Shown piece by piece: positions 1,954-6,608 of a stretch of DNA of 64,000 bases. The notes below the pieces were generated by a model. It did no database searches. It was given only the letters and a program-made list of their open reading frames with translations, and had not been told where the DNA came from. The stretch comes from Staphylococcus schleiferi (GTDB lineage Bacteria > Bacillota > Bacilli > Staphylococcales > Staphylococcaceae): contig NZ_LR962863.1 in the NCBI RefSeq assembly GCF_900458895.1, forward strand, positions 1,488,001-1,552,000, read 5' to 3'. Each line of letters opens with the position of its first letter. The stretch's first letter is position 1. Both the position numbers and the translations under genes were made by a program.

Positions 1954-3412
1954 ATGGTTGCTAATCTTTCTAAAAAAGAATTCCTATCTTTTTTAAATTC
2001 GACTGAAGGCAAACAGTTCAACGAAGATGGGGTTTTTGGCTTTCAATGCTTCGATTATGCGAACACCGGGTGGAAAAAGCTTTTTAACCATATGCTAATG
2101 GGACAAGGTGCAAAAGATATACCATTTAACTCCATCAACAAAAACCACTTTAAAACAGAGGCGAAAATTTATTCAAACACGCCTGAATTTTTAGCAGAAC
2201 CCGGCGACATGGTGGTTTTTGGTTCGAATTATGGCGGTGGCTATGGTCACGTTGCGTGGGTCATTGAGGCGACACTAGATTACATTATTGTACTCGAACA
2301 AAACTGGTTAGGCGGTGGATGGACTGACAATATAGACTATCCTGGTTGGGGTTGGGAGAAAGTAACGCGTCGTAAGCATGCGTACGACTTTCCGATGTGG
2401 TTTATCCGACCTAATTTTAGACCAGAAGGCGTTCAAAAAACAGCGCAATCCGTTACTAATTCAAAAGAAAAAGCCGTTAAGCAACCGCAAAAGCAACCTA
2501 AAAAAATTGACTTACATCCGTGATGAGATAAAAGGTTACAACATGGATAAACGCGGTTATAAACCACGCGGTATCGTTCTACACAATGACGCAGGTAGTG
2601 CAGGGGCAACAGCAGAGGCGTATCACAACGGATTAGTTAATGCCGATTACAACCGTTTAGAAAGAGGCGTCGCACACGCATACATCAGCGGTAACACGGT
2701 GTATCAAGCTATACCAGAGGGCAAGGTGACGTGGCATGTAGCTAATCGTGCAGGTAACCACGACTATTATGGTATCGAGATATGTCAATCTGTTGGTGCA
2801 ACCGATAAACAATTTTTGGCAAACGAGCAATCAGCTTTCCAAGAATCGGCACGAATGCTAAAAAAATGGGGATTGCCTGCCAACCGTAATACAGTACGTT
2901 TGCATGTTGAGTTTTACAATACAGCTTGTCCACACCGTAGCATGTTATTACACACAGGTTATGATCCAACAACAAAAGGTATCGCGCCAGAGTCAATGCA
3001 ATTAAAATTGAAAGATTACTTTATTAAGCAAATACGCGCTTACATGGACGGTAAAGTACCAGTAGCCACTGTATCAAACAAAACGAGTGCTAGCAGTAAC
3101 ACAGTAAAACCAATTGCAGGTGCATGGCGAGTAAATAAATACGGTACTTACTATGTGAAAGAAAGCGCCACTTTTGTTTGTGGTAATGAACCGATTAAAG
3201 TTAGAACTGTTGGACCGTTTACCACTTGTCCAGTAGGCTATATGTTCCAGCCTGGTGGCTGGTGTGAGTATGACGAAGTGATGTTACAAGACGGTCATGT
3301 TTGGGTTGGTTATGACTGGCAGGGTCAACGTTACTACTTACCCATACGCAAATGGAATGGTGTAGCCCCACCGAACCAAGGTTTAGGCGATTTATGGGGA
3401 ACAATTAAATAG
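1954..3412 (+). pseudogene. Phage endolysin CHAP-amidase-SH3b, frameshifted in an A7 tract
   Basis: The ATG at 1954 opens a CHAP domain (catalytic Cys in GFQCFDYAN, His in [11 protein letters not shown]), residues about 1-150, then a Lys/Gln linker and a stop at 2521-2523. The next frame carries an Amidase_2 domain ([19 protein letters not shown], Cys in [10 protein letters not shown]) and a C-terminal SH3_5 wall-binding domain ([13 protein letters not shown] ... [14 protein letters not shown]), ending at 3412. Taking one A out of the run at 2500-2506 gives one continuous three-domain lysin of about 485 residues, the usual staphylococcal layout. As read, only the CHAP domain and linker would be made. 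An internal ATG at 2543 could in principle start an amidase-SH3 fragment. Confidence 0.85.
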
Positions 3413-3447
3413 AGTGTGTTATAATAATTTTTCCAATAGTAATAATT

Positions 3448-3478
3448 GAGGGTAGTCGTATTGCCTGCCCTCTTTTTT
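3448..3478 (+). terminator. Terminator after the endolysin
   Basis: Stem gagggtagtc / gcctgccctc with a 5-base loop, followed by tttttt. Its stem is nearly the same as the second hairpin at 3618-3642. Confidence 0.7.
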
Positions 3479-3519
3479 GTTTTAAGATAGTTGTGTAACT
3501 TAACATTAATATGTTACAG

Positions 3520-3649
3520 TATAAGCAGGGAGTGTTCTTGGGAGAAACTCTATCACATTATGTGAATACCTTTTAACTCTGGACAAGCAGATTATTCAAT
3601 AACTCTTTTAATTATAAGAGGGCGGTCATTGCGACTGCCCTCTTTTTTT
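3520..3649 (+). ncRNA. Candidate prophage small RNA between twin terminators
   Basis: A -10-like TATAAG at 3520-3525 follows an inverted repeat TAACAT-N4-ATGTTA (3501-3516). About 120 bases later there is a strong terminator, gagggcggtc/gactgccctc plus T7 (3618-3649). Between them no good gene is seen, only a 21-codon frame from ATG 3511 without a ribosome site. S. aureus prophages carry small RNAs downstream of the endolysin, so this is a reasonable candidate. The -35 is poor and no homology can be tested here. Confidence 0.35.
3618..3649 (+). terminator. Second, near-identical terminator
   Basis: A 10-bp stem gagggcggtc / gactgccctc, loop attgc, then T7. It ends whatever is transcribed from the 3.5-kb region. 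Confidence 0.8.
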
Positions 3650-3695
3650 ATGCTATAATACATATAAATTACCGGTAACCAATCCGGCTTTATTT

Positions 3696-3729
3696 ACCAC
3701 CACCTATACTAGTTAAGGGTGGTTATTTT
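3696..3729 (+). terminator. Weak terminator ahead of the Panacea gene
   Basis: ACCACC (3696-3701) pairs with GGTGGT (3718-3723), followed by tatttttg. It insulates the accessory gene pair from the lysis module. Confidence 0.5.
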
Positions 3730-3731
3730 TG

Positions 3732-3760
3732 TTTACAAAACTTTTATACAGGTATATTAT
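3732..3760 (+). promoter_or_regulatory. Promoter of the Panacea/PemK-like pair
   Basis: TTTACA (3732-3737), 17-base spacer, TATTAT (3755-3760), then a strong ribosome site aagaaggaggggaaaat before ATG 3797. This gives the pair its own promoter, independent of phage late transcription. Confidence 0.6.
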
Positions 3761-3796
3761 TAGTAATAAAGTCTTTTTTAAGAAGGAGGGGAAAAT

Positions 3797-4429
3797 ATGA
3801 CGTATAGTATTAATACGATTGCGAAATGGTTTGTAGAGAATAACATTACAAGCAGTGAAAACAGCTACGACGGGAATTTAACATTAAATAAACTTATTTA
3901 TTTTGCAGATGCGATGAATTACGCAATCAACAACAAACAATTAGTAGATGAAGTACCAGTAGGATTTGCTAACGGCCCGGTGTATCAAACTGTGTATATT
4001 GATCATAGATACCGTACTTTAGCATCAATCAATTCGGATGAGGCTGAAATTTCTGAAGAAACTTTAAAATTGCTTAGAATTGTTAAATTCGCATTCGGAT
4101 CATACAACCCTCAATATTTATCAGAATTAACACATGAACAAACTCCATGGAAAAATAAAGAGGAACTGTGTAAAAAAAATTTTATCAATCCGCAGCTTAG
4201 TTTTGAAGACTTAACTGATGATGAAAAATCTGATTTAATTGAAATATATAATATGTACGGAGATATGAATTTAGACAATTATGTGATTGACAGAATAGGA
4301 AACAATGTTTTTGTTTATGATATAAATACTAACCTAAATGAAGATGATTACATGGAACTACAGCAACTAAAAATTGAGAAAGATAGTATCTTTATTGAAA
4401 AAATTGGCGGAGAATTAGTGTATGCATAA
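3797..4429 (+). CDS. Panacea-domain protein, probable antitoxin
   Basis: The gene codes for 210 residues. The N-terminal half matches the Panacea (DUF4065, SocA/GepA-like) fold: helix TINTIAKWFVENN, then LTLNKLIYFADAMNYA, a basic/acidic linker and the signature GPVYQTVYIDHRY. Panacea domains are known antitoxins that pair with many unrelated toxins. The residues after about 135 are Asp/Asn rich and may be the toxin-binding part. The gene overlaps the next one by 8 bases (ATGCATAA), a usual antitoxin-toxin arrangement. Base composition is more AT-rich than the endolysin, which fits an added moron. The toxin pairing is inference; the domain call is fairly secure. Confidence 0.75.
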   Translation: MTYSINTIAKWFVENNITSSENSYDGNLTLNKLIYFADAMNYAINNKQLVDEVPVGFANGPVYQTVYIDHRYRTLASINSDEAEISEETLKLLRIVKFAFGSYNPQYLSELTHEQTPWKNKEELCKKNFINPQLSFEDLTDDEKSDLIEIYNMYGDMNLDNYVIDRIGNNVFVYDINTNLNEDDYMELQQLKIEKDSIFIEKIGGELVYA

Positions 4430-4883
4430 CGGTTCGGTATTTATAGCAAAAATAAAATTTAAAAGAGATAACAGCCCTAATATAAAACCCCGTCAATTTA
4501 TTGTTGTTAGTAGTGACAATGGATATTTATATTTTCTGGAGACTGAAAGCGTTATTAACAAAGTAAAATTCAACGTTTCAAATATTAAGCATTCAAGGTT
4601 GAAATATCATATTTTAACATCTGAAGAAAGTTGGAAATGCGGATTTAAAGTTAAAACAGCGGTGAATTGTTATGAATTGTTTTATTGTGAATATTTTTCG
4701 GAAATTTTGTCCTTAAAACACAGAGACCTACCTATTGATATTTTAAAAGATATACAAGAAAAAGTAAGGTTGGTTAAAGAAGCCGAATTAATTATTGAAG
4801 ATTGTAAAATAAGCAAACACGAATTGATACGTTTTAATCCAAAGTTGAGAAAAAAAACAGATATATTAACAATCGTTGTATAA
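4422..4883 (+). CDS. PemK/MazF-like protein, probable toxin partner
   Basis: The gene codes for 153 residues starting inside the end of the Panacea gene. The first strands (GSVFIAKIKFK..., then PRQFIVVSS) resemble the GD-V-F/RPA-VVLS opening of PemK/MazF-type RNases. A later segment, CGFKVKTAVNCYELFYC, sits where MazF proteins have G-x-K-D-S-x-V....Q-R. The helix at 107-128 (DILKDIQEKVRLVKEAELI) also fits the MazF C-terminal helix. The 25 extra C-terminal residues are basic. If real, it would be an endoribonuclease held off by the upstream protein. The similarity is weak and judged by eye; it could instead be a different SH3-like barrel toxin. Confidence 0.5.
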   Translation: MHNGSVFIAKIKFKRDNSPNIKPRQFIVVSSDNGYLYFLETESVINKVKFNVSNIKHSRLKYHILTSEESWKCGFKVKTAVNCYELFYCEYFSEILSLKHRDLPIDILKDIQEKVRLVKEAELIIEDCKISKHELIRFNPKLRKKTDILTIVV

Positions 4884-4961
4884 TTGAGTAACAGCATAGG
4901 CTGTCTATATTAAGGTCGCTGAAGAGATTCTAAACGTATTTTTAAGTAAATAGTCCTTACT

Positions 4962-4993
4962 AAATAACCGCATCCTAACTGATGCGGTTATTT
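4962..4993 (+). terminator. Strong terminator after the toxin-like gene
   Basis: A 12-bp stem aaataaccgcat / atgcggttattt with an 8-base loop and a T-rich end. Confidence 0.8.
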
Positions 4994-5003
4994 TATATTA
5001 TTC

Positions 5004-5030
5004 CCACACCCCATCGGTGTGGTATTTTTT
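5004..5030 (+). terminator. Second terminator
   Basis: CCACACC / GGTGTGG with a 5-base loop, then tattttttt. With the hairpin before it, this fully separates the toxin-like gene from the HTH gene. Confidence 0.75.
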
Positions 5031-5046
5031 TATGTCTAAAATTAAT

Positions 5047-5097
5047 TATGACAAATGTCATAAAAGCATTGACTTATGACGAATGTCATAGTATAAT
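5047..5097 (+). promoter_or_regulatory. Operator-promoter of the HTH gene
   Basis: TTGACT (5069-5074), exactly 17 bases, TATAAT (5092-5097): close to an ideal sigma-A promoter. Two copies of TATGAC-N4-GTCATA lie at 5047-5062 and 5075-5090, 28 bp apart centre to centre. The second fills almost the whole -35/-10 spacer. A bound dimer there would block RNA polymerase, so this is a tightly repressed promoter. The downstream HTH protein is the obvious candidate repressor. Confidence 0.75.
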
Positions 5098-5176
5098 ATA
5101 GACATAAGGTAATCAAAGGTATTAAAAGCAACATGAAATCTAGTACCTTACGTAAAAAAAGCGGAGGTAGCTTAAT

Positions 5177-5737
5177 ATGAGAGGAACAATTGAAAGACTA
5201 TTAAACAGCAACTTATCCAGCAACAGCATCGCGGTGCACACAGGTGTATCGCAAGCAGTTATCAGTAAATTACGTAATGGCAAGAAAGAGGTAGGCAACT
5301 TAACGCTTAACAGTGCTGAAAAATTATACAATTACCAAAAGGGGTTGGAAGTAATGGATAAAATCATCAAATTAGACAACAAAAATGATGTAGAATTAGT
5401 TGATAGCTTAGGTCAATTCTTCACAGAAATTGAGAACGATAATAACGGTCGTTACAATGTCGAATACGTTTTGTTGAATGAAGTGGAACATGACGGCAAC
5501 ACGTATTACGAAGTGGGAATATTTAGAACCGAAGAAATTCCGTTTGGCGAAAAGGTTACTCAAGATAATGTTGAATTGCTAGAAGATAAATGGCTCGAAG
5601 TAGATCAGTCGGGCGAGAATTATATCGAAAGCGTCTTTTTCGAAAATGAAGAAGATGCGAGAGAGTATATCAAATTAGTTCTGAAAGGTAACAAAAACTT
5701 TGCTGACGTTGCAAAAGCAGTCGGCTTGATTAAATAA
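5177..5737 (+). CDS. HTH regulator at the prophage right end
   Basis: The gene codes for 186 residues. Residues 1-55 form a small Cro/XRE-like helix-turn-helix (SNSIAVHTGVSQAVISKLRNG) followed by LTLNSAEKLYNYQKG, a unit common in staphylococcal phage regulators. The rest is an acidic alpha/beta domain (NVEYVLLNEVEHDGNTYYEVGIF ... FADVAKAVGLIK) that I do not recognise. It is the last gene before the lacE junction, with its own repressible promoter and terminator, so it is expressed as an independent unit in the lysogen. Probable roles are autorepressor, superinfection control or a conversion factor; none can be proved from sequence. Confidence 0.65.
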   Translation: MRGTIERLLNSNLSSNSIAVHTGVSQAVISKLRNGKKEVGNLTLNSAEKLYNYQKGLEVMDKIIKLDNKNDVELVDSLGQFFTEIENDNNGRYNVEYVLLNEVEHDGNTYYEVGIFRTEEIPFGEKVTQDNVELLEDKWLEVDQSGENYIESVFFENEEDAREYIKLVLKGNKNFADVAKAVGLIK

Positions 5738-5743
5738 TAGAGT

Positions 5744-5772
5744 AAAGAGGGGCAAACAGCCCCTCTTTTTTT
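5744..5772 (+). terminator. Terminator after the HTH gene
   Basis: GAGGGGC / GCCCCTC with loop AAACA, followed by seven T. It is the last phage feature before the chromosome junction. Confidence 0.8.
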
Positions 5773-5800
5773 ATGTATGGTTCGTAACCATAGCCACTTT
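5773..5800 (+). other. Prophage right attachment junction (attR) inside lacE
   Basis: Phage-type sequence ends with the terminator at 5772. LacE-homologous coding sequence begins at about 5793 (ATLLVPYLF..., aligned by memory to S. aureus LacE). The crossover core must lie in or next to this interval. The left junction is outside the window, so the core repeat cannot be read. Confidence 0.65.
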
Positions 5801-6608
5801 ACTCGTCCCTTATTTATTTATATTTCTTTGTAAATCAAAAGAATTAAAAGCTGTTGGTAAAGCATCTGTCGTTCCAACTACTTTTGCAGTAAACGAACCT
5901 TTACTCTTTGGTGCACCGATTATCTTAAATCCAGTATTTATGATTCCTTTTATCATTACGCCTATTATTAATTCATGGATTTTAAAATTCTTTGTTGAAC
6001 AATTAGGGATGAATGGTTTTATGCACTTACTTCCATGGCCTACACCAGCACCGATTGGTATATACATGGCTAGCAATTTTGCAATGCTTTCTCTTGTTTT
6101 AATAGCCGTATTATTGATAGTGGATTTTATTATTTGGTATCCATTTGTACGTGCATACGACAAAATCAAGCTTGATGAAGAACGCAGTACTGTAACTGCT
6201 GAATCAAGCAATGATTTAAAAGATACCTCTGATACAAAGACTGAACAAGAAAATGAATCTTCATATGACCAATCGACTCACAACTTTAGTGCCAATGTTT
6301 TAGTCGTCTGTGCAGGTGGCGGAACAAGTGGTATCCTAGCTAACGCACTTAACAAAACAACAAAAGAAAAAGGCGTTCAGTTAGAGGCAACCGCTCGTGC
6401 ATATGGTCAAGACATGGATTTGATTCGTGACATGGATGTTGTAATCCTTGCACCACAAATGGATTCAATGAAAGATGAAATGAAGAAAATAACAGATCAA
6501 TATGACGCACAACTAATGACTACAACTGGACGTGAATACATTGCGTTAACACGTGACGGAGATGCGGCATTAACAAAAATAGCTAACTTGATTCGTCAGA
6601 AAAATTAA
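5793..6608 (+). pseudogene. lacE: lacE 3' part, lactose PTS EIICB cut by the prophage
   Basis: The frame is open from before the junction. From 5793 it reads as the last transmembrane part of a lactose EIIC (KAVGKASVVPTTFAVNEPLL, then FGAPIILNPVFMIPFI), followed by the linker and the EIIB domain with its phospho-cysteine loop VLVVCAGGGTSGILANAL. About 270 residues remain of the usual 570. The first half, including most of the sugar channel, is missing and should lie beyond the left end of the prophage. ATG codons such as 5940 could start a fragment but not a transporter. lacG follows 29 bases later with its own ribosome site. EIICB-Lac imports and phosphorylates lactose, so this lysogen should lack that route unless the phage excises. 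Confidence 0.85.

Follow-up and report, generated by a model that had tools for sequence, protein, structure and literature searches.

Two overlapping genes in a 64,000-nucleotide stretch of Staphylococcus schleiferi (assembly GCF_900458895.1, contig NZ_LR962863.1, positions 1,488,001 to 1,552,000; hereafter the window) very probably form a PanAT-type (Panacea) type II toxin-antitoxin pair, carried as a moron by a prophage, in which the second gene encodes a toxin of the MazF/CcdB fold. Directly established for the pair are the domain of the first protein, the coupling of the two genes and its conservation, the predicted fold of the second protein (hereafter the partner), the position in a cargo slot and the one-sided loss of the partner among relatives. 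The genes and signals are the following, in window coordinates:

3797..4429, forward strand: panA-like antitoxin gene, 210 amino acids, with a SocA_Panacea domain (PF13274) at residues 30-119 and GPV at residues 60-62
4422..4883, forward strand: partner (putative toxin) gene, 153 amino acids, with a predicted MazF/CcdB/Kid-type fold over residues 1-122 and an extra C-terminal strand and helix
4422..4429, forward strand: overlap of the two genes, 8 bases, ATGCATAA, of this length in 4 of the 4 loci examined (the window, L007, L008 and L009)
3732..3760, forward strand: sigma-70-like promoter match TTTACA-17-TATTAT, a consensus match of a kind whose count is not above chance
3783..3791, forward strand: ribosome-binding site of the antitoxin gene, AAGGAGGGG, by sequence reading
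4406..4412, forward strand: ribosome-binding site GGCGGAG of the partner gene, within the antitoxin gene, by sequence reading
3616..3644, forward strand: terminator-like hairpin in the interval between the endolysin gene and the pair, from a hairpin scan
4962..4993, forward strand: terminator-like hairpin 3' of the pair, 13 pairs, from the hairpin scan
5004..5022, forward strand: second terminator-like hairpin 3' of the pair, from the hairpin scan
3427..5300, no strand: variable cargo slot, bounded by the limits of DNA homology with phages vB_SpsX-DS12 and phiSP38-1

Firstly, we established the identity of the first gene and its coupling to the second. The 210-residue protein matches PF13274 with an E-value of 1.9e-14 and 55 bits, against a curated cut-off of 25.7, and its GPV motif reads NGPVY; the Panacea domain named in the original prediction is thereby confirmed. 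The 8-base overlap proposed there is present between the reading frames 3797-4429 and 4422-4883, and chance is excluded for the pair because the same two genes with the same overlap recur in three further loci. Terminators had been placed on either side, and hairpins do lie on both, the two strands of positions 3000-6000 holding 6 sites versus a mean of 1.6 (standard deviation 1.5) in shuffled sequences. The promoter of its own claimed for the pair is a consensus match only: the region contains 12 promoter matches versus 14.4 expected, so that the one at 3732-3760 is plausible by position, though such matches are not above chance in number. No Rfam match was found over 3400-5900. The partner, for its part, obtained a best Pfam E-value of 0.021, to an unrelated family and with nothing above cut-off, no match in NCBIfam or PADLOC at E up to 1, and a single row in PHROG (E 0.24).

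Secondly, we collected the relatives of the pair. A single-sequence query of a large protein database returned 4 proteins 67-90% identical to the partner, one of them named S. aureus. Counting the window's own genome, relatives were found in 3 of 108 genomes of the family and 3 of 157 of the order; among 398 genomes sampled from the class, the window's own was the only one, and IMG/VR contributed one contig (L009). A tblastn search at E up to 1 found nothing in 50,697 phage and 72,556 plasmid records. From these counts we dropped as chance one match in the family set (G011, E 0.0075, 26% identity, stops inside), two partial matches in the order set (G006 and G132, E 0.005-0.01) and four partial matches in the class set (G478, G477, G006 and G387, E 8e-4 to 0.008), the only one of the four to be inspected, that of G478 (L073), overlying unrelated enzyme-like open reading frames (ORFs). 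Among 684 frames L074 (G477) reached E 4.5e-5 and L073 E 3.6e-4, in a set that contains both because they were matches. The partner is 55% identical in S. rostri (L003/L007), where its frame is broken near the N-terminus, 43% in S. caledonicus (L004/L008) and, in L009, 45% in the best segment and 43% over the alignment. All three are preceded by a Panacea gene 46-63% identical to that of the window, again with the 8-base overlap. The gene order of L009 is that of the window (endolysin, pair, helix-turn-helix (HTH) gene of phrog_1529), the S. caledonicus pair lies downstream of phage-type replication and regulatory genes, and the S. rostri pair is flanked by chromosomal genes that are transporter-like by recognition. 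In another bacterial family of the class (G311, locus L079), a remote Panacea relative (E 7e-30) is followed by a broken relative of the partner, with E 2e-7 among the 684 frames; this partner gave no report at E up to 0.01 in the class sample and was reached only via its Panacea neighbour. Partner relatives are few, and the pair is a rare example. On a further IMG/VR contig (L064, 3235-6216), a terminase small subunit gene is followed by a Panacea gene that runs off the edge of the contig, and two genes there resemble, by eye, genes of the S. caledonicus locus; this suggests a possible satellite island, similar to the phage-inducible chromosomal islands (PICI), carrying the pair.

Thirdly, we compared the state of the two genes across 8 loci with a related full-length Panacea gene, namely the window, L007, L008, L009, L012, L013 and L014, set at 43% identity or more, and L079, included by profile match; this count excludes L064, whose Panacea gene is cut, the weaker matches L080 and L081, and the more distant genes L015-L026. 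The partner is intact in three (the window, L008, L009), broken in two (L007, L079) and absent from three (L012, L013, L014), where tblastn at E up to 1 brought up no match; L012 and L013 represent a single locus present in two genomes. Kurata et al. 2022 (PMC8832971) describe GPV as a signature of the Panacea domain and as critical for neutralisation. In our close set, from which alone the rule is drawn, all 5 loci that have partner sequence keep the motif, and all 3 that lack the partner have lost it, through two different substitutions (NSPVY in L012 and L013, DGSVY in L014). GPV has decayed solely in loci lacking the partner, which suggests that the partner is the target of the Panacea protein, and the one-sided loss, in which the partner disappears and the Panacea gene is kept, suits an antitoxin and its toxin. 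Between S. caledonicus and L009 the ratio of non-synonymous to synonymous substitution rates (dN/dS) is 0.16 for the Panacea gene and 0.21 for the partner, both indicating purifying selection, and it is 0.52 for the Panacea gene between the partnerless L012 and L014, a weaker selection measured on few changes. The partnerless Panacea genes lie downstream of a gene that is, by recognition, like a major facilitator superfamily (MFS) transporter.

The pair is like the PanAT systems of Pseudomonas moraviensis and Bifidobacterium ruminantium, to which we liken it by their published description: a Panacea antitoxin, a two-gene locus, a partner without a domain match and a MazF-like predicted fold. 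According to Kurata et al. (PMC8832971), PemK is among the toxin domains paired with Panacea; the verified PanT of both species is toxic, neutralised and inhibits protein synthesis; both are described there as having no CDD hit and a predicted EndoA/PemK/MazF-like fold; and the P. moraviensis pair was shown to form a stable complex. The same paper defines PanAT loci by genes at most 100 nucleotides apart, an arrangement found in at least two species and no operon of more than three genes. Here the genes overlap by 8 bases in the window, S. rostri, S. caledonicus and L009, and hairpins stand on both sides in the window. The Panacea domain is also common to the antitoxin of SocAB, the type VI system of Caulobacter, which raises another mechanism, that the Panacea protein hands the partner to ClpXP for degradation and does not block it directly. 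The NCBIfam SocA model does give a weak partial match (E 1.2e-4), but at 21.8 bits against a curated cut-off of 190 (NF047745) the window protein lies far below it and SocAB membership was rejected on the SocA model. Moreover, five Panacea pairs form stable complexes in the tests of others (PMC8832971). We consider delivery to ClpXP highly improbable and favour a direct block of the partner by its antitoxin.

Panacea genes with MazF-like neighbours are annotated in other phages. In Staphylococcus phage StauST398-2 (NC_021323.1) and Listeria phage B025 (NC_009812.1), RefSeq names a 'DUF4065 domain-containing protein' and a 'MazF-like growth inhibitor' between the endolysin and the attachment site. 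The two phages share the order holin, endolysin, Panacea gene, overlapping MazF-like gene and attachment site, with at least one small gene interspersed, whereas the overlap is 29 bases in StauST398-2 and 4 in B025 versus 8 in the window. Of the six members of their partner family (alignment A4) that were scanned, four give PemK matches below cut-off (E 2e-4 to 2.2e-3) and two, L019 and L071, give none; the family has no significant similarity to the window partner, and the Panacea proteins of five staphylococcal A4 loci are only 21-24% identical to that of the window. Since MazF-like partners of Panacea proteins are annotated in these two phages and MazF-fold ones have been verified in two published cases (PMC8832971), the suggestion that the Panacea network has gained a new type of toxin here does not stand. 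Other Panacea genes of the Staphylococcaceae adjoin the PemK-like family of these phages or other proteins, and these varied neighbours fit the partner swapping described in the same paper. Among them, the Panacea genes of L021 and L025 are followed by a protein of 183-189 residues and that of L022 by a 405-residue protein with hydrophobic stretches; neither the L021 nor the L022 partner exceeds the cut-off of any Pfam family, and all three are candidates for unclassified Panacea partners. The Panacea neighbours of a Pseudomonas phage (L086) and of Paenibacillus (DUF5406) do not match PF02452, nor does L086 match either of the MazF-like families treated here.

We then consider the fold of the partner. 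Two models predicted a MazF/CcdB-type fold over residues 1-122. The original prediction had named an unrelated structure as part of the outcome that would tell against it, and on this half of the test the models favour the prediction. Its PemK/MazF-like partner therefore stands at the level of the fold; no PemK/MazF match was found at the level of sequence. Among the fold matches, MazF rows rank highest and occur more often, a PemK/MazF is the best viral match, and CcdB is level with MazF in fold. The MazF active site contains a catalytic Arg and a catalytic Thr, as in Bacillus subtilis MazF. The chromosomal MazF of the same genome (G000:C1:851640-851960) has the MazF-type fold predicted for the partner, but no significant sequence similarity to it; matched by strand order and by eye, K22-P23 of the partner stands at the position of R23-P24 of this MazF, a Lys-Pro for an Arg-Pro, and T41 at that of T46. 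The catalytic Arg of MazF thus appears to be replaced by Lys22. Among the partner relatives, KPRQFIV is kept in 7 of 7 full-length sequences and both ETE and TA[IV]NC.E in 8 of 8, while the remote broken partner of L079 deviates from the first and third of these motifs. A MazF/CcdB fold with the Arg seemingly replaced would also suit a partner that poisons gyrase in the manner of CcdB, or acts on some other target, and is not an RNase. Set against this are the rank and number of the MazF rows and the PemK/MazF identity of the best viral match, the Thr at the site of the second catalytic residue of MazF, the pairing of Lys22 with Arg by strand order and not by superposition, and the divergence of L079. 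RNA cleavage is likely, and a CcdB-like or other action is an alternative to which we give a low probability. A bolder reading makes the partner the founder of a toxin family of MazF fold whose active site has been remodelled (Lys-Pro for Arg-Pro, the invariant ETE and TA[IV]NC.E, the strand and helix added at the C-terminus) and whose target or chemistry is unlike MazF mRNA cleavage; a dedicated Panacea clade would restrain it, and Staphylococcus prophages, perhaps satellites too, would share it. As a whole we consider this reading doubtful.

Several results weigh against a MazF-type toxin as the second member of the pair. Both partner models were built on the same 8 sequences, and for the window partner one of five models was confident, the others standing at 36.8-39.9. 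Foldseek returned no MazF among the 50 best PDB chains per model, with best E-values of 0.20 and 0.13; the type III secretion chaperones and other chains that it did return were discarded as noise (E 0.13 or worse, TM-scores no higher than 0.30). The Pfam matches of the partner do not include PF02452, and NCBIfam gave no PemK/MazF at E up to 1. When the profile of the partner family was compared with that of MazF from 30 loci of the order, identical sequences being counted once, and with that of the sister PemK-like family, neither comparison was significant. As a control, that sister family, of which 3 of the 4 members scanned weakly match PF02452, also failed against MazF; the test is therefore insensitive and is not evidence of unrelatedness. 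RNA cleavage is uncertain because of the apparent replacement of the catalytic Arg by Lys22. The GPV rule is not clean outside the close set: L080, a weak Panacea match, keeps the motif with no same-strand downstream ORF of at least 60 residues in its stretch, and L081, also a weak match with no such ORF in its stretch, has not kept it. The partner of the window has a higher dN/dS when compared with L008 and L009 (0.38 and 0.43), at synonymous sites near saturation. Finally, 8 of 25 selected partners were non-toxic in E. coli in PMC8832971. This last figure, together with the broken partner frames in S. rostri and G311, would be expected if the partner were not a toxin at all, and instead an accessory protein, for instance an anti-defence or regulatory one, or a decayed and harmless ex-toxin. 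The loss is one-sided, however, two intact loci show purifying selection on the partner (dN/dS 0.21), and a toxin is expected to have just such a MazF/CcdB fold and a Panacea gene as its neighbour, so that we judge a non-toxic partner decidedly unlikely.

In a PanAT-type pair with a MazF/CcdB-fold toxin, the upstream gene would yield a Panacea antitoxin that binds and blocks the 153-residue partner made from the same message, as in type II systems. Once freed, the partner would most likely inhibit growth by cutting RNA and stopping protein synthesis. The role of the pair may be the maintenance of the prophage or the abortive exclusion of other phages.

The setting of the pair agrees with the moron position assigned to it in the original prediction, a cargo slot with the endolysin on one side and the prophage's right end on the other. 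The prophage, of about 42 kb, splits a gene for the IIC component of a phosphotransferase system (PTS), whose 5' part lies at 1451131-1451793 (L067) and whose 3' part starts at 1493763 of the same contig, that is, at window position 5763; because of this split, no more than about 2 kb separates the pair from the right end of the element. The split gene (about 5763-6608 of the window, and L067) lies next to a gene that is phospho-beta-glucosidase-like by recognition. A 470-residue frame abutting the left part has, by recognition, the look of a large serine recombinase, and the two junction zones compared have no common stretch of 9 bases or more, which fits such a gene at the left end. Directly 5' of the pair are the endolysin and putative holin of a staphylococcal prophage. 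DNA homology with vB_SpsX-DS12 (88.7%) and phiSP38-1 (79%) ends at 3425 and 3426, right behind the endolysin stop, and that with DS12 restarts at 5317, within the HTH gene; DS12 carries other small ORFs in between. On this comparison of sequences, the slot holding the pair is a variable cargo (moron) slot. The CHAP (1798-2523) and amidase (2378-3412) parts of the endolysin occupy two overlapping frames in the window, where DS12 has one 496-residue frame, reflecting a broken gene or a sequencing error. Behind the pair, the tandem palindromes TTATGACAAATGTCATAA and TTATGACGAATGTCATAG (5030-5107) extend over TTGACT-17-TATAAT (5069-5097), the strongest promoter match of the region, and are followed by the phrog_1529 HTH gene (5177-5737), an arrangement that looks like an autoregulated operator.

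Taken with its predicted fold, the pair looks like a new, rare example of the known PanAT kind, and the partner family like a very divergent, MazF-shaped putative toxin. Because this family has no model in the four libraries searched (Pfam, NCBIfam, PHROG and PADLOC), the pair would escape annotation and scans for defence systems built on these libraries. Two MazF-like partner families, with no detectable sequence similarity to each other, are found with Panacea antitoxins in the same slot of staphylococcal phages, between lysin and attachment site. The intact pairs, the pairs with a broken partner and the partnerless genes that have lost GPV through two substitutions make up a natural series on what a Panacea antitoxin needs.
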